Part shown: one piece after another, positions 1,279 through 31,213 of the stretch | Numbering within the stretch: the first letter of the stretch is position 1 | How the letters are laid out: every line of letters begins with the position of its first letter | Assembly (NCBI GenBank): GCA_905339345.1 | Contig: CAJPFF010000168.1 | Coordinates: 1-32,302, forward strand | Direction: 5' to 3' | DNA length: 32,302 nucleotides | Source of the DNA: Geobacteraceae bacterium | Lineage (GTDB): Bacteria; Desulfobacterota; Desulfuromonadia; Geobacterales; Geobacteraceae | The notes under the pieces: model-generated | Told to the model about the DNA's origin: nothing | Seen by the model: the letters and a program-made list of their open reading frames with translations, nothing else | Database searches by the model: none | Program-made: the position numbers and the translations under genes

Positions 1279-3453
1279 TCATTTCCCGCTCGCCGCAGCC
1301 AGAACCCGCTCCGGCGTCATGGGGAGGGTCCGCAGGCGGGCGCCGGTGACGGCGAATACGGCGTTGGCCACGGCCGGCGCCACCGGCGGGACCCCCGGCT
1401 CCCCGATTCCCCCCGGTTTTTCCGTGCTGCGGACGATATGGGTTTCCACCCGAGGCATTTCATCCATCCGGATGATGGGGTAGTCGAGGAAGTTGGACTG
1501 CTCCACCCGGCCGTTTTTGAAGGTGATGGCGCCATGGAGGGCAGCCGAGAGGCCGAAGGCGACCCCCGACTCCATCTGGGCCGCGATGATGGCGGGGTTC
1601 ACGATCCGGCCGCAATCCACGGCGCAGACGACCCGGTGGACCCGGATCTCGCCCTTTGTCCCCACCGACACCTCGGCAACCTGGGCCACGATGCTTCCGA
1701 AGGACTCGTGAACGGCGATTCCCCGGCCGCGTCCCTCGGGGAGTGCTTTCCCCCACCCGGCCTTCTCGGCGGCCAGGTCAAGGGCCCCCACGAGCCGCGG
1801 ATGCTTCTTTAGAAGCTGCCGGCGGTACTGGTAGGGGTCCTTTCCCGCCAGGTGGGCCAGTTCGTCGATGAAACCCTCTTTTACGAAGCAGGTGGCTGAG
1901 TGACCCACCGACCGCCACCAAAGGACCGGCACCCCGGCCGGCGCCATGTGGTAGTCGCAGAGAAAATTCGGAATCTCGTAGGGGGAGTCGGCGGCCCCTT
2001 CCACGGAGGTCTCGTCGATGCCGTTTTTCACCATCCCCCCCTCGAAGGGAGTGCCGATGGCGATGGACTGGCCCACGATCCGGTGCCGCCAGGCAATGGG
2101 CATTCCGGCGGCGTCGAGACCGGCGGCGAGCTCGTTATGGAAGGTGGGGCGGTACCAGCCGCCGTGGATGTCGTCTTCCCTGGTCCAGATCACCTTGGCC
2201 GGCTTGCCGATGGCCTTGGAGACCTGCACTGCCTCCCGGACGAAGTGGGAGTCGGGGACCGCCCGCCTCCCGAAGCCCCCCCCCAGAAACATGGTGCGGA
2301 GGGTTATCTTCTCGGGGGGGAGGCCGGATATTTTTGCCGCTGCATTCCGGTCACCGGTCTGCATCTGGGTTCCGGTCCAGATGTCACACCGGTCGGGCTG
2401 CACGCTCGCCACGCAGTTCAGGGGTTCCATGGGGGCGTGGGCCAGGTATGGCACCTCGTAGATCGCCTCGATCCGTTTCGCTGCCCCCTTCAGGGCGGTG
2501 TCCGGGTCTCCGCGACGGGCTGCCACGGCGCCGGGTTTTTTCGCCATTTCCGCATACTGGTCTCGCTGGCGGCCGCTGTCGAGGCCGGCCAGGGGCCCCT
2601 CGTCCCACTCGATTGCCAGGGCTTCGCGTCCCTTCAGGGCCGCCGGGAAGCTGTCGGCAACTACCGCAACCCCTGCGTCGATGGGGATGACCCGCTTTAC
2701 GCCGGGGACCTTTTCCGCCTGATCATGCCTGATTATCTTGGCCTTCGCCCCGAAGACCGGCGGCCGGGCCACCACGGCGGTGAGCATGCCGGGGATGGCC
2801 ACGTCGAGCCCGAAGATGGCGGTGCCGTTCACCTTGGCCGGGGTGTCCAGGCGCCTGACCGGCCGGCCGATGACCGTGTGCTCCTTCGGATCCTTGAGGA
2901 GCACCTCCGCAGGTGGCTTCAGCCGGGCGGCCCGTTCCGCCAGCTTTCCATAGGAGAGGCGTCTGCCGCTGGCCCGGTGGAGGACAAACCCCTTTTCGGC
3001 CCGGCACTGGTCCGGCTTAACCTTCCACTCCCTGGCAGCGGCGGCGATGAGCATCATCCGGGCCGCGGCCCCCGCCTTCGCGAGGCGCTCCCATTCGGTC
3101 CTCACGCTCGTGCTCCCGCCGGTGGCCTGGATCCCCCATTCGGCGTGGTTGTAGTCCGGTGTTACCGGTGCCGCCTCCACCCGGATGATGGAAGGATCCA
3201 CCTCCAGTTCCTCGGCCACGATCATGGGGAGCGCCGTATAGACCCCCTGACCCATCTCCGACTTGTTGACGATAACGGTGATGGAGTCGTCGGTGCCGAT
3301 CCGGATGAAGGCGTTGGGGGCGAAGGTCTCGCCGGGGGGCTCCATGCCTGCGGCGGTCCCCAACGGGAGGTGGACCCCGATGATCAGCCCTCCCCCCAGG
3401 ACGGCTCCTGCCTTGAGAAAGTCGCGACGGTTCATGGTGACGATCCCGCTCAT
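1279..3453 (-). CDS. iorB: Isoquinoline 1-oxidoreductase-like molybdopterin-binding subunit, Tat-exported
   Basis: A 724-residue large subunit of the xanthine dehydrogenase/aldehyde oxidase family, close to the usual IorB length. The N-terminus has a twin-arginine signal, NRRDFLKAG followed by a Gly/Leu/Ile-rich stretch, so it is expected in the periplasm. Family motifs include [19 protein letters not shown], and near the end [10 protein letters not shown], which carries the catalytic Glu. Such enzymes hydroxylate N-heterocycles or oxidise aldehydes using water, passing electrons to 2Fe-2S centres. The start at 3453 overlaps the stop of the small-subunit gene as ATGA, with GGAGG 7 bases upstream, which implies coupled translation. 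The actual substrate is unknown, and the isoquinoline name is by family only. Confidence 0.88.
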
Positions 3454-3914
3454 GGCGCACCTCCCTTGGACGTCGTGCCGGCGGCCCGGTGAATCGCCGT
3501 GCGGATCCGCTGGTAGGTGCCGCAGCGGCAGAGAATCCCCTCCATGGCCTCGTCGATGGCCGCGTCGTCGGGTTTCGGATTGGCGGCCAGAAGCGCCGTG
3601 GCCGCCATGATCTGGCCCGGCTGGCACCAGCCGCACTGGGGGACATCATCGGCGATCCAGGCCTGTTTCACCGGGTGAGATTCGGGAATCCCCTCGATGG
3701 TGGTGACTTCCTTGCCGGCCACGGCCGACACGGGGGTGACGCAGGAGCGGATCGCCCGCCCCTCCACATGGACGGTGCAGGCGCCGCAGAGCGACATGCC
3801 GCAGCCGTATTTGGTTCCCGTCAGGCCGATCACCTCCCGGATTACCCAGAGGAGCGGCGTATCGGGGGGGACGCTCACCTGGTGGCGCGTGCCGTTGACG
3901 ATCAGGGTGATCAT
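3450..3914 (-). CDS. iorA: IorA-type (2Fe-2S)-binding subunit of molybdenum hydroxylase
   Basis: A 154-residue two-cluster ferredoxin subunit. The N-terminal plant-type 2Fe-2S domain has Cys 38, 43, 46 and 58 ([14 protein letters not shown], then SCV). The C-terminal helical domain has Cys 94 and 97 (QCGWCQPGQ) and Cys 129 and 131 (CRCGTYQRI). It relays electrons from the molybdenum site of the partner encoded immediately downstream. It has no signal peptide of its own, so it would have to be carried through the Tat pathway bound to IorB, as is known for this family. The ATG at 3914 has GGAGGGAGGAAACC upstream. No FAD subunit is encoded nearby, which fits the two-subunit Ior class with a membrane or cytochrome electron acceptor. 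Confidence 0.9.
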
Positions 3915-3946
3915 GGGTTTCCTCCCTCCGGTGGCGGGTAGGCGAA

Positions 3947-4564
3947 CTACCGCACCGTGAAGCTGGTTTCGCGGCTATCCTTTGCCGTGGCGGTCCTGAC
4001 CGTCGAGATCACCCGGTAGCTCCCCTTCTTGGCATCGGTGGGGAGGACGATGGGGATGGTGAAGGTGTAGGTGCCGCCGCCGTGGGTCACCATGGCCTCG
4101 GGATTGCCGACGAGTTCGCCGCCAAAGTAGATCTCGACCGATTCGGTCAACCCCACCTGTTCGCCGGTGGTCGGAGTGAGGAGGGCATAGGTGGTCTGGA
4201 CTTCAAGCCGTTCTCCCGGATTGACGGACGAGGGGGTAGTGGTAACGTTTTCGAGCCGCACCATGGTTCCTGACGAGGGTTGGACGTTGTACTTGGCGGA
4301 GGTCTCTTCGGCGGTGAGTTTCTTGTCGATGGTGTAGTTGCCTATCACGCCGCCGATGAGCGCGCCGGCCAGACCGCCCAGAAGGGCACCCTTGGTCCGC
4401 GACCCCTCTCCTGCCAGCACCGCGCCGGCAAGGGCACCTGCGGCGCCGCCGTAGCCGGCTCCCTTTGCCGCCCCCTCGTGCTCCTTCGGGACGGTGCCGC
4501 ACCCTGCGATGCCGACCAACGTGAATGCTGCCAGCGTGATGAGTGAAATCAGCCTGATTTTCAT
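3947..4564 (-). CDS. Glycine-zipper lipoprotein
   Basis: A 205-residue protein with a lipoprotein signal peptide and lipobox IAGC (Cys 22). It is followed by a Gly/Ala-rich glycine-zipper segment, roughly residues 34-75 ([33 protein letters not shown]), as in the 17-kDa surface antigen/YMGG family. The C-terminal half, about residues 95-205, reads as a beta-rich extracytoplasmic domain with NPGERLEV and [10 protein letters not shown]. It is probably anchored to the outer or inner membrane. It lies 32 bases upstream of iorA on the same strand and may share its transcript. A functional link to the hydroxylase is not evident. Specific function unknown. Confidence 0.75.
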
Positions 4565-4644
4565 AATGTCCCTCCGTGGTCCGTGGTGGTACCCCTGGCG
4601 CCGCCGGGCGCAGAGCGTTCCGGCCCATGCCGGTTAACGGAAAA

Positions 4645-4672
4645 AGTATAGCCGGGAGAGGAGCGAATGCAA
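4645..4672 (-). promoter_or_regulatory. Candidate sigma70-type promoter for the lipoprotein-iorAB block
   Basis: On the minus strand a -10 TATACT (4645-4650) lies 16 bases after a weak -35 TTGCAT (4667-4672). It would give a leader of about 75 bases before the lipoprotein start at 4564. The -10 matches 5 of 6 consensus bases, but the -35 matches only 3 of 6. Confidence 0.35.
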
Positions 4673-4715
4673 GGAGTGGGAGGGGCGAGGAGTGGGAGAA
4701 GGGAGGTGGGGCGTG

Positions 4716-5951
4716 TCAGGTGCAGATACGGTTGCGGCCGCTCCCCTTGGCCCGGTAGAGGGCCTGGTCGGCGGCCTTGATGACGTCGGCGGGGCGGCGA
4801 CGATCGCCGCCGCTCTCGGCCACGCCGATGCTGACGGTGACCGAAACGGTGCCTCTGTTCTGGCCGGAGCCGTAGCGGAGTTTCTTCCCCTCTCGCGACG
4901 AGCTGGGGCGGTCAGTGCTGCGCAGGCGCATCTGGTAGTCGGCGATGGTGCGGCGCAGTTCTTCCAGGCTTCCGAGAACCTCCTCGCGCCCCTTGCGGGG
5001 GAAGAGGATGGTGAATTCTTCGCCGCCGTAGCGGTAGACCGTTCCGCCCCCACCCACGCCCCGCAGCTTCGAAGCCACCATCCGCAGCACCTGGTCTCCC
5101 ACGTCGTGGCCGTAGGTGTCGTTGAACTTCTTGAAGTGGTCCACGTCGACCATGGCAACGGCGTAACGTCGTCCGAGCCAGGTGAGCTGTTCGTTGAGGG
5201 CGCGGCGGGAGGGGAGTCCCGTCAGGTCGTCTTTGAAGGCCATGTTGTAGGAGTCCTTCAGGACCCCCAGCGTGAGGATGGCTGCGGCGGCGGTCATGAA
5301 AACAGGCGTGACGTGCTCCGTCCCGATGCCGTTGCAGGCCACCGCAAAGGCTGTCATGACACCCAGAAGGCTCGCGTCGATGGGAGACTGCCGCATGCAG
5401 GCCCGGCCGGCTACTACGAGGGCCCCGAGGACGATCACCGGCAGGGCCGGCTGGGGAAGCAGGAGCCCGCCCAGGAGATGGCTCTCCGTAAACCGGCAGG
5501 AAAGGAACTGCTGTACCACCAGGTGTCCCGGTTCCATGGCCCATCCGACGAAGAGTGCCTGGAGCCCCAGGAAGGCGAAGCGGAGCCTGCCGGCCACGGT
5601 CGCGATCCCCCGCTCGCGCATGAGGGAGAAGAGGGCGATGTTCAGGGGGACGAGGACGCAGACCGCCTGAAAGAGAACCGTGGCCGTGATCCCCGTCGGC
5701 GCCCCCCTCAGGTGAACCCGAAAGCTCCAGTAGGCGGCGGCCAGGACGAGAAACATGAAGAAGGCCCGGCCCCGGTGGAAGTGAAGGGAGAGCATGGTCC
5801 CCAGGGCCATGGTAAGGTAGGGGGTGAAGGGGAGAAGCTCCAGCCGTCCCGGCGGCAGCGCGGCCACCTGGGGGAAGAACCAGCCGGTGGCCCCAAGGAG
5901 CAGAGCGGGAATGAGGAATATGGTGAAGTTTTTAAGGGGGATTGCCTGCAC
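4716..5951 (-). CDS. Membrane diguanylate cyclase (GGDEF domain)
   Basis: A 411-residue protein. Residues 1-230 contain about six or seven hydrophobic segments. The GGDEF domain runs from about 238 to 411 and includes DDLTGLPSRRAL, VDVDHFKKFNDTYGH and the active site GGEEF at 309-313. It is expected to make c-di-GMP from two GTP at the inner membrane. The inhibitory RxxD site normally found just before GGDEF is absent (the sequence is RGVGGGGTVYRYGGEEF), so simple product inhibition at that site is unlikely. The start is GTG 5951, with AAGGAG about 10 bases upstream. The N-terminal sensor resembles no domain I can name, so the signal is unknown. It is transcribed on its own or behind the phosphoesterase upstream. 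Confidence 0.9.
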   Translation of the reverse strand: MQAIPLKNFTIFLIPALLLGATGWFFPQVAALPPGRLELLPFTPYLTMALGTMLSLHFHRGRAFFMFLVLAAAYWSFRVHLRGAPTGITATVLFQAVCVLVPLNIALFSLMRERGIATVAGRLRFAFLGLQALFVGWAMEPGHLVVQQFLSCRFTESHLLGGLLLPQPALPVIVLGALVVAGRACMRQSPIDASLLGVMTAFAVACNGIGTEHVTPVFMTAAAAILTLGVLKDSYNMAFKDDLTGLPSRRALNEQLTWLGRRYAVAMVDVDHFKKFNDTYGHDVGDQVLRMVASKLRGVGGGGTVYRYGGEEFTILFPRKGREEVLGSLEELRRTIADYQMRLRSTDRPSSSREGKKLRYGSGQNRGTVSVTVSIGVAESGGDRRRPADVIKAADQALYRAKGSGRNRICT

Positions 5952-6025
5952 GTTGCGAGGGCTCCTTGGTGATAGGACCTAACAAACGTATCGGGGGAAA
6001 ATGAGAAAACTTTAGCCGATATTCT

Positions 6026-6706
6026 CTAGTCGATATTCTCCTGGAAGGAGAGCGTCATGGAATCGAGTTCGAGGGCGGCCAGGCATCCCATGCCGGCTCG
6101 CCCCGGATAGACGCAGCCGTTGTCCAGGACGATCCGGTCGGTGGCAAGGCCCCGGAGGATTTCGGTGCGGCTCATCGGGGTGTGGCCGCCGATTACGCGC
6201 CGTCCCTCGATCATCTCCTTCCGGACCTCCAGGGAGCGGCTCCAGAGCATTGTCTCCGTGTCGGCAAAGGGGGAGGGGATGGCGAAGTTGAGGCTTGCGT
6301 GGACCAGGACGAAATCGGGGAGAATGCGGTAGTAGGGCATCTCTGCCATGAAGCGGCGGTAGGGGAGGGGGATCTCGCAGGCATCCTCCACACCGAAGCT
6401 GTCGAGGGTGGCGCGGCCGCCGTTGAGGAGCCACATCCGGAAAAAATCGCGGTCTCCGCAGCTGTTCAGGAACATCTCCTCGTGGTTTCCCCGCACGGGG
6501 TAGACCCGGTATCCCTTCATCACGAGACCCATGAGGATGTCGAGGACCTCCCGGCTGCGGGGGCCCCGGTCGATGTAATCACCGAGGAGGTAGAGCTCGT
6601 CGCGGCGCTTCAGGTGGATTACCTCCCGGAGGAGCCGGTCCAGGGTCAGGGCGCAGCCGTGGATATCGGGGATGACAAAGCGGTGGGAAAGGTGAACTCT
6701 TTTCAA
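6026..6706 (-). CDS. PPP-family metallophosphoesterase (ApaH/serine-threonine phosphatase-like)
   Basis: A 226-residue protein with the full metal-binding set of the PPP phosphatases: PDIHG (residues 13-17), GDYIDRGP (42-49), GNHEE (73-77) and GGHTP (about residue 173). The family contains symmetrical Ap4A hydrolases and bacterial Ser/Thr protein phosphatases. At 226 residues it fits the PrpA/lambda-type phosphatases better than E. coli ApaH (about 280). The substrate cannot be assigned. The start appears to be TTG 6706: an in-frame stop lies just upstream and no ATG or GTG precedes the first motif. There is no strong ribosome-binding site. It is divergent from bioF. Confidence 0.82.
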   Translation of the reverse strand: MKRVHLSHRFVIPDIHGCALTLDRLLREVIHLKRRDELYLLGDYIDRGPRSREVLDILMGLVMKGYRVYPVRGNHEEMFLNSCGDRDFFRMWLLNGGRATLDSFGVEDACEIPLPYRRFMAEMPYYRILPDFVLVHASLNFAIPSPFADTETMLWSRSLEVRKEMIEGRRVIGGHTPMSRTEILRGLATDRIVLDNGCVYPGRAGMGCLAALELDSMTLSFQENID

Positions 6707-26078: not shown

Positions 26079-27551
26079 ATGATCACCATACTCTTCATCT
26101 CTGATGATACCCGGGCTGCCGATCTCATCGCCCGGTTTCAGCCTCAGCTCAAGGCGCGCCTGAGGCTTGCCCTCGATTTCGACCAGGGGCTTAAGGAGGT
26201 GTTCGACAACAGGCCCGCCGCGGTTTTCATCCAGAGCAACATTTCGGGAATCTCCGGCGAGACGGTTGCTCGCCACATAAAGACTCTCCTCCGTACCGAT
26301 GCACCCCGTATCGTCCTCATTCACTCGTCGCCCCTGTCGATGCAGGGAACAAAAAAATGGTTCGACGACACGGTCGATTTCTCTCTTCCGCAGACTGATC
26401 TCGTCGAGCAGTTCAGGCAACGGCTGGCGGAGATTGCCCCTGATCATTGGTTTGATCAGAATCACGGGCAGCGCCGATCCTTTGAAGACGTTCCGGTGGC
26501 CAATGAGGTGGATGCTCCGGTGCCGGTGTCACCTCCGCCTGGAGAGTTCGAGTTCTTCGATTGGGAGTCGCCTGGCAATACCGGTACTGCTGTCGTTCAG
26601 GCACCCCCCATTCAACCTGCTCCAGAGATAAACGAGTTTCAGCACAGGGCTCCTTCGTCTGGGGCTACACCGGTTCCTGTCGAGGAAGGCGAGGACGCAG
26701 TCGCTCCAAGCCTCGTTTCGCCGGGGGCGGAGCTTCGGGCCGTGATGCCTTCGATTATCGAAGAGACGGCCGCTGCCCAGTCTGTTTTTTCGGATCAGGA
26801 GCCTTCTCCCCTGGTCAGCGCTTCTCCGCCAGTGCTTCCCCCCCGTGAGGTGGCGCATCAGCCCGCCCCTCCTCCGCGCGCTTCTCTGCCTCATGGGGTG
26901 GCCGTTCCTGTAGAGCAGTCCGCCGCATCCCTTGGGTCCTTCAGTGCAGAGAAGCCCGACGGGGGAAATGCTGAGTGGGTTACCGTACCATCGCCCGGCA
27001 AAGAGTTTAAGGAACCGTCAGGGCAGCGCCTTTCCCTCTGGGCCGTCGTTATCGTAGTTTTACTCATCGGCGCGGTGGTAGGTGGGTCCCTGCTGCTCAA
27101 GGGTGGGGGGAGGAATACCGGAACTGTTGGTAAGCCGGCATCTCAAACCCCGGCTCCGGCACGTCCTCTCTCTGCATCGGCACCTTCAGCTGTGACTCCC
27201 GCCGCGGTGGAAATTCCTTCTTTTGTTCCCGTGTCAGGGAGGGATCCAGGGTACGGGAAGGCCCATCCTGGCTGGGAGCGGTACCGCGGTGCGGGGGTCG
27301 AGTTTCGGCTCTACCGCGAACAGGGCCGGTTGAAGGTTGTGCAGGTGATTGCCCTGCGCGGTAAGACCATTCCTGAGGCACAAGTCACGAAAATTGTCAA
27401 AGTGTTGACCGGAAGTGGGAACCGCACCATATCGTCCCACACGAACAAGGGTGGCTATCTGCGCGAGGTCGGCAAAATTGCCGGCAACAACGAGATTGTC
27501 ATCTACCGCAAGGGGAGTGTCATCCGGGGGGTTGTTATAACCCTCGGATGA
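26079..27551 (+). CDS. Degenerate-receiver, single-transmembrane protein of unknown function
   Basis: A 490-residue protein in four parts. Residues 1-120 resemble a response-regulator receiver (ITILFISDDTRAADLIARF; PAAVFIQSNISGISG). The acidic pair D9-D10 is present, but the phospho-acceptor Asp position reads Gln/Ser and the conserved Lys region reads IHSSPLS. It is therefore probably not phosphorylated. Residues 135-315 are a long Pro/Ala/Ser-rich, probably disordered linker. Residues 319-340 form one transmembrane helix. Residues 345-490 are periplasmic, ending in a compact domain (EFRLYREQGRLKVVQVIALRG to the end). It lies upstream of an exported LysM protein and a GspE-like ATPase on the same strand. 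It may connect a cytoplasmic partner to the periplasm. I do not recognise the full architecture. Confidence 0.75.
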   Translation: MITILFISDDTRAADLIARFQPQLKARLRLALDFDQGLKEVFDNRPAAVFIQSNISGISGETVARHIKTLLRTDAPRIVLIHSSPLSMQGTKKWFDDTVDFSLPQTDLVEQFRQRLAEIAPDHWFDQNHGQRRSFEDVPVANEVDAPVPVSPPPGEFEFFDWESPGNTGTAVVQAPPIQPAPEINEFQHRAPSSGATPVPVEEGEDAVAPSLVSPGAELRAVMPSIIEETAAAQSVFSDQEPSPLVSASPPVLPPREVAHQPAPPPRASLPHGVAVPVEQSAASLGSFSAEKPDGGNAEWVTVPSPGKEFKEPSGQRLSLWAVVIVVLLIGAVVGGSLLLKGGGRNTGTVGKPASQTPAPARPLSASAPSAVTPAAVEIPSFVPVSGRDPGYGKAHPGWERYRGAGVEFRLYREQGRLKVVQVIALRGKTIPEAQVTKIVKVLTGSGNRTISSHTNKGGYLREVGKIAGNNEIVIYRKGSVIRGVVITLG

Positions 27552-27697
27552 GGCGGAAGTGCCGGGCGTGTTCGGCTCGGCCCTGTGGTTCTTCGCTCGG
27601 TGGCCGTACAGGCCCAATTCAACATTGACACGTGCGGGATATTCCTCCATCCTCCGCAGGTGGTGCTACGAAAGTACTTTGTTTAACGGGAGATGCA

Positions 27698-29266
27698 ATG
27701 ATAGCTACCCCCCCCCGGCATGTTGTTGCCATCGCACTTGCAGTGCTGGCCTTCGGCGTTGTGCCGACGCAGGTGCACGCCATAGACCCCCGCTTTGAGC
27801 TGGATCCGCGCCTTCTCGACAAAGCCGCTGAGCCACCTGCAGGGGATCGCCAGGGACGGACTGTCCGCAAAGCGGTGCGTCCGGCCACCGGCATGTCAGA
27901 CTATACCGTCAGGCCTGGCGACCACATCTTCAAGATCCTCATGAAGGAGTACGGTCTCTCCAACGCCGAGTCCGAGGCCCTTATCCCCGAAGTAAAGCGA
28001 CTCAACGGGATCTCTGACATTAGAAGGCTTCGGCCGGGACAGTCGATCCGGATTCCGCTGGCCCAGCGGCGCGGACAAGGGGCCGTAGCTGAACGGAGTG
28101 CACCGAAAGCAACACGTGGGGCGCCTTCGCGGTCTGAAGGCTCTGACCCGGTTTCCGCTGCGAAAGCCGGGGGTGGCGAGAGGCCTTCAGGCCACTCCAT
28201 GCGGATGATGAGCGTCGCAGGGGAGCGGGAGCCTGCAGGCATCGAAACGGTGCGTCAGGTATGGGGCGGTCTCGTTTCTTCTCAACCGGTCTCTTCCGGG
28301 CCGGTCGCCATCAAGGACAAGAACTTTTCCCTTTCCCTCGATCCTGAATCCTTCCCGTCGTTCCCTGCGGCCGACGGGGGAAGGGTGCTCGTGGATGCCG
28401 GGGGAAAGATCCCCCCCCTCGTGAGATCCCTCATCGAGGAGAAGGATCCGTCAATCCGCATCGTCTCTGAGGACCCGCGCAACCGCAAGCGCTTTATGGC
28501 ATCCCTTCTCACGGGGGCTCGCTTCTATTCGGTGGAGGAGGACGTTTCCCTCTCATTCGGTGCCGATCCCAAGCTGACGGTGAACGCCGATTTCAAGATC
28601 GAAAAGACCCCCGAAAGCGTCCTGCATCACGACGTGGTGTTGATGAACGTCGAGGAGTACCGGCGGGGCATGCCGCCTTCCCTGGTTCAGTTTCTCCGCC
28701 GCGAGGGGTTCCAGGTCATGGAGCCTTTTCCTGCACGGGAAGATGCACCGCCACGGGGCGCACGAACTCTCCACCAGATTACGGCCCATGAGACCCGGGG
28801 GATCGTCGATGGGCTCCTGCGGGCCCTTAATGTTCGCTATGAGACCGACCGCAGCGTTGAGCTCTACGGTATGGGGGACGGGGGGCTCAGGCTCGACGTG
28901 AGGGCAGACCGCTACTTCGAGGATGGACGAGACCGTTACGTGGTGAGCTACTTTGATGGAGACCCGGTTTCCTATACCCTGACGCGACTTCTCGAGACGC
29001 GGGGCTATCGGGTGGTGGTCCTCGACCCGAAGGACGATTTCCGGAAGGTTTCCGAGAAACTCCTGGCGAGGTTGAGGCTTCCCGGGGTCTTTGCCCAGCA
29101 CGATCTCCTTCCGCACCGGGACGCACCCTACGGCATCCAGATGTCGGGGGTCAGGATGCGCGGCCAGGGGGCGGGCGGGGAAACCGTCTTTCTCACCAAC
29201 GCCGAGCTCGATCCGCTCTTCAGGGATCTCCTCGATTACAACGGCTACGCGGTCATTTCCTACTAA
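27698..29266 (+). CDS. Exported LysM-domain protein of unknown function
   Basis: A 522-residue protein with a signal peptide (cleavage probably after VHA, residue 28). One LysM domain follows at about 69-120 (YTVRPGDHIFKILMKEYGL, LRPGQSIRIPL), which would bind peptidoglycan glycan. A low-complexity basic linker runs to about 200. A large C-terminal region, about 205-522, has no motif I recognise. It seems to contain repeated alpha/beta units, each with a hydrophobic strand and an acidic turn (GGRVLVDAGGKIPPLVRSL, RDRYVVSYFDGDP, YRVVVLDPKDD), and ends with TNAELDPLFRDLLDYNGYAVISY. The start is ATG 27698 with GGGAG 7 bases upstream; the frame extends to 27632 without support. It is 146 bases after the receiver-like gene and 18 bases before the ATPase gene, so it is likely co-transcribed with at least the latter. 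Confidence 0.8.
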   Translation: MIATPPRHVVAIALAVLAFGVVPTQVHAIDPRFELDPRLLDKAAEPPAGDRQGRTVRKAVRPATGMSDYTVRPGDHIFKILMKEYGLSNAESEALIPEVKRLNGISDIRRLRPGQSIRIPLAQRRGQGAVAERSAPKATRGAPSRSEGSDPVSAAKAGGGERPSGHSMRMMSVAGEREPAGIETVRQVWGGLVSSQPVSSGPVAIKDKNFSLSLDPESFPSFPAADGGRVLVDAGGKIPPLVRSLIEEKDPSIRIVSEDPRNRKRFMASLLTGARFYSVEEDVSLSFGADPKLTVNADFKIEKTPESVLHHDVVLMNVEEYRRGMPPSLVQFLRREGFQVMEPFPAREDAPPRGARTLHQITAHETRGIVDGLLRALNVRYETDRSVELYGMGDGGLRLDVRADRYFEDGRDRYVVSYFDGDPVSYTLTRLLETRGYRVVVLDPKDDFRKVSEKLLARLRLPGVFAQHDLLPHRDAPYGIQMSGVRMRGQGAGGETVFLTNAELDPLFRDLLDYNGYAVISY

Positions 29267-29284
29267 CGAGGGTTCCAAGCGGAC

Positions 29285-31213
29285 ATGTCCCCAAAAAAGG
29301 TCGGCGAGATACTCATTGAAAATCGGCTGATTACCGAAGATCAGCTTCGGGAGGCCCTGGAACTCCAGAAGGTTTTCCCCGACCAGCCTGTCGGCCAGCT
29401 CCTCTGCAAGCTCGGTTTTCTCTCCGAGAGCGAGCTCTCCTATATCCTGGAGCAGACCGGCAAGCGCCAGAAGCTGGGTGACATCCTTCTGCGCGAACGG
29501 CTCATCGACCAGGAGCGGCTCAATCAGGCCCGTGCCGCTGCCAAGAGGGACGGCATCCCTTTAGACAAGGCCCTTCGCAAGCTCCGCATCGTCGAGGAGG
29601 AGCCCCTTGCCAAGGCGATAGCCGTCCAGTATGACCTTTCCTTCGTTCACATCAACACCCTCGAGATCGAACCGGAGCTTGCCCGGTACATCAATCCGTC
29701 CTACGCCCAGAAGCAGCGGATCGTTCCCATCTCCAAGATCGGCAATACCCTCACCCTGGCCATGGCCAACCCTATCAAGCTCCACGATCTGAAGGAGCTC
29801 GAACAGAGCATCAGGGCGCGGATCATTCCCGTGATCGCCGTGGAGAGTGAGATTCTCAAGGCCCAGCAACGTCTCTATCGAACGGCCACCAGTCAGACCC
29901 ATTCCTTCGATGAAGCCGACCTGGAGATCGAGCCGGGGAGCATCACGGAAATCCTGGGCTCCACCGTTGAGGATGAACCGGACATCGAGGACGAAGTCCG
30001 GAAGGTGACTGAGCGTGACAGCATCATTGTGAAGCTCGTCAACAAGATCATCTTCGATGCCCACCAAAACCGCGCCTCCGACATCCACATCGAGCCCTAT
30101 CACGGCAAGAACGACGTCATTGTCCGGATGCGCGTGGATGGACGGTGCAAGATTTACCAGCGCATACCCTACCGCTACAAGTACGCGATCCCTTCCCGCC
30201 TCAAGATCATGGCTGACCTCGACATTGCCGAGAAGCGCAAGCCTCAGGACGGAAAGATCAATTTCAAGAAGTTCGGCCCCCTCGACATGGAGCTCCGCAT
30301 CGCCACCATGCCCACCGCCGGTGGGCTCGAGGATGTGGTGATCCGGCTCGTCAATACCGGTGAGACCTACTCCTTCGACAAGCTCGGCCTGACCGAGCGG
30401 AACATGCGCATTTTCAGTGAGGCCGTGACCAAGCCCTACGGACTGGTCCTGGTGGTGGGGCCCACGGGGAGTGGCAAGACCACCACGCTCCATTCAGCAA
30501 TATCCCGAATCAATCGCCCCGAGGTGAAGATCTGGACCGCCGAGGACCCGGTGGAGATTACCCAGAAGGGGCTTCGGCAGGTGCAGGTGAATCCCCGGAT
30601 CGGCCTCACCTTCCCGGTGGCGCTCCGGTCGTTCCTGCGTCTCGATCCCGATGTCATCATGGTGGGGGAGATGCGGGACGAAGAGACCGCCTCCATCGCC
30701 GTGGAGGCCTCCCTTACCGGGCACCTGGTACTTTCCACGCTCCATACCAACTCGGCCCCCGAGACCGTTACCCGCCTTCTGGAGATCGGACTCGACCCCT
30801 TCAGTTTCTCCGACTCTCTCATCTGCATCGTGGCCCAGCGCCTTGCCCGTCGGCTCTGTGAGGAGTGTCGCGAAATCTACCGTCCCGACAGGCAGGAGCT
30901 GGCAGAGATAATCGAGGAGTTCGGCGAGGAGCAGTTTGCCGCCACGGGGCTTGTGGGCAACGAGCTCGTCCTTGCCCGGTCCGTGGGGTGTCCTGTCTGT
31001 GGTCAGACCGGGTACCGCGGCCGTCTCGGCATTCATGAGGTCCTTGAATGCACCGACGGCATGAAGAGCCTTATCAAGAAGCGGTCTGAAACCGAGCTTA
31101 TCCGTCGCCTGGCCATGGACGAGGGGATGACCACTCTCCGGCAGGACGGTATCCTTAAGGTTTTTCAGGGGCTCACCGACATCCACGAGGTGCGTAAGGT
31201 CTGTCTAAAATGA
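29285..31213 (+). CDS. GspE/PilB-type secretion or pilus ATPase with two MshEN-like N-terminal domains
   Basis: A 642-residue hexameric-type ATPase. Two consecutive MshEN/T2SSE_N-like repeats start the protein: KVGEILIENRLITEDQLREAL (about 5-55) and KLGDILLRERLIDQERLNQA (about 63-122). MshEN repeats bind c-di-GMP in MshE and related ATPases. The catalytic core has an Asp box SDIHIEP (265-271), Walker A GPTGSGKTT (392-400), the Walker B/His-box region VIMVGEMRDEET with STLHTN (about 457-490), and the zinc tetracysteine C525/C528 and C569/C572. It would power a type II secretion or type IV pilus-like machine at the inner membrane. No platform, pseudopilin or secretin gene is nearby. It follows the LysM gene by 18 bases. 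Confidence 0.9.
   Translation: MSPKKVGEILIENRLITEDQLREALELQKVFPDQPVGQLLCKLGFLSESELSYILEQTGKRQKLGDILLRERLIDQERLNQARAAAKRDGIPLDKALRKLRIVEEEPLAKAIAVQYDLSFVHINTLEIEPELARYINPSYAQKQRIVPISKIGNTLTLAMANPIKLHDLKELEQSIRARIIPVIAVESEILKAQQRLYRTATSQTHSFDEADLEIEPGSITEILGSTVEDEPDIEDEVRKVTERDSIIVKLVNKIIFDAHQNRASDIHIEPYHGKNDVIVRMRVDGRCKIYQRIPYRYKYAIPSRLKIMADLDIAEKRKPQDGKINFKKFGPLDMELRIATMPTAGGLEDVVIRLVNTGETYSFDKLGLTERNMRIFSEAVTKPYGLVLVVGPTGSGKTTTLHSAISRINRPEVKIWTAEDPVEITQKGLRQVQVNPRIGLTFPVALRSFLRLDPDVIMVGEMRDEETASIAVEASLTGHLVLSTLHTNSAPETVTRLLEIGLDPFSFSDSLICIVAQRLARRLCEECREIYRPDRQELAEIIEEFGEEQFAATGLVGNELVLARSVGCPVCGQTGYRGRLGIHEVLECTDGMKSLIKKRSETELIRRLAMDEGMTTLRQDGILKVFQGLTDIHEVRKVCLK

Follow-up and report, generated by a model that had tools for sequence, protein, structure and literature searches.

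Assembly ATPases of the GspE/PilB type act through a platform protein, which is GspF in type II secretion systems (T2SS) and PilC in type IV pili (T4P). TfpB of Acinetobacter baylyi is a second pilus extension motor that works beside PilB (PMC8213720), and in Myxococcus xanthus PilB has been reported to regulate exopolysaccharide (PMC5544727). The consensus of the MshEN domain comprises two motifs of 24 residues, marked by Gly, Leu and Gln positions (PMC5013675). In Thermus PilF, the GSPII-B unit, with Lys and Leu at the key Arg positions, binds cyclic di-GMP (c-di-GMP) at 6 nM, and GSPII-C, in which motif II opens with Pro, is also c-di-GMP-binding (PMC11731258). Here we present a three-gene set, P1-P2-P3, in a contig of 32,302 nucleotides (nt) from a Geobacteraceae bacterium (CAJPFF010000168.1 of assembly GCA_905339345.1); the window refers to this whole stretch. 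P3 is an ATPase of the GspE/PilB type, and its partners are a membrane protein with a pseudo-receiver (P1) and an exported LysM protein (P2), both undescribed, which together would extend from the cytoplasm to the cell wall. The set looks like a real, unstudied envelope module and not like a known pilus or secretion system. In the reading that we favour, with a probability of about 0.4, the three form one unit, a c-di-GMP-gated accessory motor that would be docked via P1 and P2 and would serve a T4P or T2SS platform whose genes lie outside the set.

Conservation of the set across the host order

Relatives of the set were surveyed in 117 genomes of the host order, with P3-like ATPases accepted at E-values up to 1e-220. 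P2 relatives are found in 91 of these genomes and P3-like ATPases in 65. In a scripted count, 57 of the 72 P3-like hits follow a same-strand P2 at a distance of 15–168 nt; one further adjacency, added by hand in G070 by joining a split P2 match, brings the figure to 58. At an identity of at least 63%, 55 of 58 P3-like genes directly follow P2. The 58 places in which P3 lies directly downstream of P2 are spread over four families and at least five gene neighbourhoods, and an adjacency of this kind is far beyond chance. In the family set, 44 P1 and 44 P2 hits fall on the same loci, and P1 adjoins P2 wherever the flank is long enough; the later, shorter loci cut P1 off and are not scorable for it.

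The surroundings of the set vary. In the named metagenome-assembled genomes L077–L079 and L124, odhA lies upstream and rimP-nusA-infB downstream, while the downstream gene is gltX in L080, a YchF-type GTPase gene in G002, and pheA in the source genome and G008; a DUF11-TPR gene lies upstream in G041. These names were read from the sequence, except for the DUF11-TPR gene and pheA, which come from family searches. The persistence of the gene order while the flanks change is good evidence for one unit, and the grouping of P1, P2 and P3 as a unit is strongly supported by this comparison. The preliminary description of the locus had proposed that gene order be scored in related genomes; the orthologues are not found lying apart without co-occurrence, as the conserved P2–P3 adjacency makes plain. 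Nor do all three proteins match a well-described system, as no described system fits P1 or P2, and the combination of P1, P2 and P3 was not found in a literature search.

P3 is a motor ATPase on a branch of its own

P3 matches the Pfam families T2SSE (E = 6e-118) and MshEN (E = 2e-18) as well as PilB/GspE structures, in agreement with its earlier designation as an MshEN-type GspE ATPase. The Walker A motif, the EDPVE sequence (Asp box), the Walker B motif, the His box and the four cysteines are all conserved in 36 P3 orthologues, and by these motifs P3 is an intact and complete GspE/PilB-type assembly ATPase. Its scores do not reach the cut-offs of the equivalog models for PilB (TIGR02538; 553.9 against 675.65 bits), GspE (TIGR02533; 488.4 against 630.25 bits) or TfpB (NF053534; 424.9 against 850 bits). 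In a tree of 45 ATPases the P3 clade has a support of 100/100, and its sister group consists of the widespread GAF-MshEN-T2SSE orphan ATPases; a branch of 100/100 parts both from the PilB and GspE of the source genome, with long branches to PilB/GspE that make the exact rooting unsure. P3 is a new branch of an already known kind.

The preliminary description had also noted the absence of the usual partners. Among the open reading frames around the set, none was recognized as PilC/GspF, a prepilin or a secretin, although no search was aimed at prepilins or secretin. In the source genome, which is 70.7% complete, T2SSF domains were found on two contigs alone, C92 and C93, and tblastn detected no PilC/GspF in the fetched P1-P2-P3 loci. 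PilC/GspF is within reach at only 3 of 74 loci of the GAF-MshEN sister type. In six near-complete genomes (G008, G028, G049, G073, G084 and G111), in which the pairing was read from hit coordinates, every PilC/GspF platform adjoins its own ATPase; P3 is present in five of them (not in G028) as an orphan, usually with at least one further orphan ATPase. As there is no spare platform in these genomes, P3 is left with three options: sharing a platform with another ATPase, doing without any, or serving as a sensor.

The MshEN units and the candidate ligand

Two stretches of P3 match the NCBIfam c-di-GMP motif NF053729. Across 36 sequences, the key Gly, Leu and first Gln positions of the first unit are 100% conserved. 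Lys usually stands for the first Arg and Pro or Thr for the second, and another residue takes the place of the final Gln. The core of the MshEN receptor, two motifs with their Gly, Leu and Gln, is present in the first unit and missing from the second, where most homologues lack the Gly and binding is improbable. The suggestion of two likely c-di-GMP-binding domains is therefore only half right, fitting the first unit and not the second. The conserved core, together with the precedent of the substituted PilF units, makes c-di-GMP binding by the first unit plausible. For electrode biofilms Geobacter sulfurreducens relies on c-di-GMP, and for Fe(III) particles on cyclic GMP-AMP (cGAMP) (PMC6456294); with both messengers present in this organism, either is conceivable as the ligand of P3.

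P1 carries a dead receiver and a new periplasmic domain

In profile comparisons against Protein Data Bank (PDB) chains, residues 1–116 of P1 resemble response-regulator receivers (E = 4.4e-5). The fold is that of a receiver; in place of the phospho-acceptor Asp there is a Gln (Gln52), invariant in 17 of 17 aligned homologues, and judged from its sequence the domain is phosphorylation-dead. A Pro-rich linker and a single transmembrane segment follow, so that the pseudo-receiver/transmembrane assignment made earlier is borne out. P1 has no Pfam match up to E = 1.

The periplasmic domain, P1C, was modelled by AlphaFold2 with a pLDDT of 89 and a predicted TM-score (pTM) of 0.80, from alignments that, as in all of the structure modelling, held only six sequences. 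A fold search of the PDB with this model returned no match below E = 0.001. A relationship to LolA/LolB or SAV1118 was considered and set aside, the hits being weak and unconvincing (TM-score below 0.36), and P1C is a new periplasmic domain. In a sample of 395 genomes of the phylum it is confined to the host order, bar one short, frame-broken match. P1C-like domains are also carried by other, shorter proteins (L223:1252-1890 and L234:1114-1860), which suggests that the domain is mobile.

The receiver is the better conserved part in ATPase-linked P1s (43%, against 36% for P1C), and among the unlinked pairs, short and paralogous, it is P1C that is better conserved (43%, against 33% for the receiver). 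This contrast may be taken as a weak hint that P3 docks on the receiver.

P2 is an exported protein with tandem modules

Translation of P2 probably starts not with the GTG at 27632 but 22 codons later, with an ATG at 27698, where a signal-type N-terminus begins with its predicted signal peptide. At the mature N-terminus there is a FELD-type motif, the Phe of which is invariant in 16 of 16 aligned P2s. One LysM domain is recognized, narrowly over the cut-off (PF01476; 21.2 against 20.9 bits). It is degraded or absent in the P2s of G002, G041, G040 and L080, although the ATPase is retained there; peptidoglycan binding is consequently not a constant of the design. The proposed link to the cell wall through an exported LysM protein is in keeping with the protein studied here and does not extend to all ATPase-linked P2s.

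The C-terminal region appears to consist of at least two tandem alpha/beta modules, and probably of four. Pairwise hhalign comparison gives an E-value of 1.4e-5 for modules 2 and 3 and about 1e-3 for modules 1–2 and 0–3, while unrelated control pairs did no better than 0.05. The modules match no Pfam family; outside the receiver fold and the LysM, the regions of P1 and P2 that had been called unassignable indeed belong to no Pfam or NCBIfam family. The structure model of P2 is of low confidence (pLDDT 54, pTM 0.31), probably because of the six-sequence alignments. A Foldseek search with it lists the periplasmic domain of PrgH (E = 2.4e-4, TM-score 0.1–0.2), a match that would suit a ring but should carry no weight at this pLDDT. 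Several PD-(D/E)xK-like nucleases are listed as well; this candidate was rejected in view of the export of P2 and the poor quality of the model.

Proposed mechanism and alternatives

In the mechanism that we propose, P3 would act as a hexamer, and its first MshEN unit would bind a cyclic dinucleotide, c-di-GMP being the likeliest. P3 would probably dock on the dead receiver of P1, which spans the inner membrane, as GspE and PilB do with GspL and PilM. In the periplasm P1C would probably meet P2, a putative scaffold of tandem modules that may often be tethered to peptidoglycan by its LysM, and the module would then gate, drive or position a T4P or T2SS platform from another locus. Since neither a platform nor a pilin is encoded in the set, it is most likely a signal-gated accessory motor or a positioning device, and TfpB provides a precedent for a second, separate motor serving the same pilus machine.

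Several observations weigh against this reading. On contig C69 of the source genome, a further P1-P2 pair (L045:6462-9557) stands without an ATPase, long P1-P2 pairs without it are found in genus g6, and shorter, unlinked pairs occur in other genera. The pair can act without this ATPase, and P1-P2 is a wider core than P1-P2-P3. Conversely, some P3-like genes are not accompanied by P1-P2, for example in G036 and, as a second copy, in G048. In g6 the receiver is slightly more conserved than P1C in spite of the absence of P3, which weakens the argument for docking; the exception may be due to P3 having been lost there only recently. A tree built on the last two modules of P2 places the g6 proteins within the ATPase-linked clade, with moderate support (91/84, 93/83 and 95/90 at the decisive forks), so that g6 most likely lost the ATPase. 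Replacement of P3 by a GAF-type ATPase in g6 was considered and rejected, as its occurrence does not track the long P2.

The preliminary description left two possibilities, an unrecognized c-di-GMP-controlled envelope machine or an accessory module feeding a platform elsewhere. The accessory module is the better fit, given the orphan ATPases related to P3, the lack of a spare platform and the intact motor motifs. A stand-alone machine, in which P3 would drive P1-P2 directly without PilC/GspF, for instance in building a ring or conduit or in remodelling the cell wall, fits less well and is in our view unlikely: the dependence of the known assembly ATPases on a platform protein and the persistence of P1-P2 without P3 in g6 both speak against it. 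The tight linkage of the three genes and the absence of a free platform from the genomes checked would agree with such a machine, as would the tandem modules of P2 and the likeness of its low-confidence model to the ring-forming periplasmic domain of PrgH.

It also seems unlikely that P3 signals without producing force, as a c-di-GMP-responsive sensor that would regulate an envelope or matrix process together with P1 and P2. The conservation of every tested motor motif in the 36 orthologues would be needless for a pure sensor, even though the sister ATPases carry GAF sensor domains and stand outside pilus loci, P1 is a pseudo-receiver, and PilB of M. xanthus offers a precedent. Quite improbable is a self-contained P1-P2 scaffold of the envelope to which P3 would be a co-transcribed neighbour, recruited in one clade and making no physical contact. 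The wider distribution of P1-P2, the g6 pairs with their nested P2s, and the occurrence of P1, alone or with P2 as in the C69 pair, beside exported DUF11-TPR and LysM-TPR genes would be expected of such a scaffold; the position of P3 right after P2 in 58 places and four families, despite changing flanks, would not. We regard as similarly improbable an undescribed machine of the host order, in which a cyclic-dinucleotide-gated hexamer would act directly on a P1-P2 ring made of a new tandem module, without a pilin platform and, given the altered MshEN site in organisms that use both cGAMP and c-di-GMP, could even read cGAMP.

Layout and neighbourhood of the locus

The coordinates given in the preliminary description agree with the list of open reading frames, in which all three genes lie on one strand (Table 1). 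The gaps are 80 nt between P1 and P2 and 18 nt between P2 and P3, and the set is flanked by a cation-efflux gene upstream and by pheA downstream.

Table 1. Predicted features of the P1-P2-P3 locus, in positions of the window
Feature	Position	Strand	Description	Basis
P1	26079..27551	+	bitopic inner-membrane protein, 490 residues: pseudo-receiver, Pro-rich linker, transmembrane helix, periplasmic domain	open reading frame list
P1 pseudo-receiver	26079..26444	+	residues 1-122	profile match to PDB receivers; alignment
P1 transmembrane helix	27042..27098	+	residues 322-340, approximately	hydropathy scan
P1C periplasmic domain	27231..27548	+	residues 385-490	AlphaFold2 model
P2	27632..29266	+	exported LysM protein	open reading frame list; Pfam LysM; alignments
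P2 signal peptide	27698-27781	+	predicted	alignments
IDPRFELD motif	27782..27805	+	predicted mature N-terminus of P2	alignment
P2 LysM domain	27902..28057	+		Pfam PF01476; alignment
P2 C-terminal module region	28235..29263	+		hhalign between modules
P2 modules	28235-28471, 28469-28738, 28778-29026, 29021-29263	+	within the C-terminal region	hhalign
P3	29285..31213	+	assembly-type secretion/pilus ATPase, 642 residues	Pfam T2SSE, MshEN; PilB/GspE structures
P3 first MshEN N-unit	29297..29458	+	motifs K5-Q28 and P35-T58	36-sequence conservation
P3 second MshEN N-unit	29471..29629	+	degenerate	conserved Gly gone in most homologues
P3 T2SSE motor domain	30011..31195	+	Walker A, EDPVE, Walker B, His box, tetracysteine	

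An Rfam scan gave no match in the window, nor adjoining P1 in four other loci that were searched, and riboswitch control of the set was rejected on this ground. In L167 two tandem riboswitches of the c-di-GMP-I class (2134-2437, minus strand) lie about 6 kb from a P1-P2-P3 set, close to a gene (2793-3851) whose product shows similarity to DUF4388 and MshEN-like domains. G002 has, on the upstream side of P1 (L166:2140-6731), a small Ras/Arf-like GTPase, possibly of the MglA type, a histidine kinase and a receiver-MshEN-T2SSE ATPase, which places two orphan ATPases in one neighbourhood. At L160:7377-11239 a P3-like ATPase (61–62% identity) without P1-P2 stands beside another MshEN-T2SSE ATPase, with an Hpt-receiver-GGDEF protein further upstream. 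The C69 pair is convergent with genes for an exported TPR/DUF11 protein (2674-5547) and a LysM-TPR protein (5549-6253), a neighbourhood that recurs in G033, G029, G050, G056 and G059.

The counterpart in Geobacter sulfurreducens

Geobacter-type bacteria are a model for electrically wired biofilms, and the motors that build their surface filaments are disputed. In G. sulfurreducens, GSU2609 is a PilB/PulE/GspE ATPase, 40% identical to PilB and well expressed on anodes; pilin filaments and current persisted after deletion of pilB, and GSU2609 is among the genes that might compensate (PMC8557921). GSU2613 is assigned to cation efflux and GSU2612 to rubrerythrin (PMC10599522), which leaves exactly two genes before GSU2609, in the positions of P1 and P2. 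From this numbering, the counterpart of the set is probably GSU2609-2611, with GSU2611 as P1 and GSU2610 as P2; a literature search returned no paper naming either of the latter two. ATPases of the GSU2609 type, which are conserved across the host order, would accordingly have a pair of envelope proteins dedicated to them and probably a switch operated by a second messenger, and the naming of GSU2609-2611 as a set bears directly on whether a hidden motor compensates for PilB.

Comparison with known systems

The LysM of P2 recalls the pilus-associated LysM proteins FimV/HubP and TsaP, from which P2 differs in being fully exported, in having no FimV TPR domain and in C-terminal modules outside the Pfam families. 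A tandem alpha/beta ring-building fold, as in the periplasmic ring domain of PrgH/SctD, is possible for P2; no sequence similarity to these proteins was found, and the Foldseek hit concerns the low-confidence model only. The GAF-MshEN-T2SSE orphans of Desulfobacterota and other groups are up to 58% identical to P3; where P3 has its first MshEN unit they carry a GAF domain, and no P1-P2 was found at their loci.

With MshE and Thermus PilF, which has several GSPII units before its ATPase, P3 shares N-terminal tandem 24-residue motifs; it differs in the substituted Arg and Gln positions, in its degenerate second unit and in lying outside a pilus operon. Like TfpB, P3 is an extra motor of the PilB family, phylogenetically distinct from the canonical one; unlike TfpB, it is linked to P1-P2 and scores half the TfpB cut-off, and its role in a pilus is putative. 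Compared with GspL and PilM, P1 has a pseudo-receiver instead of an actin-like domain, and no PilC/GspF, pilin or secretin was seen near P3. What the set shares with GspE-GspL in the T2SS and with PilB-PilM in type IVa pili is an assembly ATPase accompanied by a membrane-linked partner with a cytoplasmic domain, on which P3 would dock.

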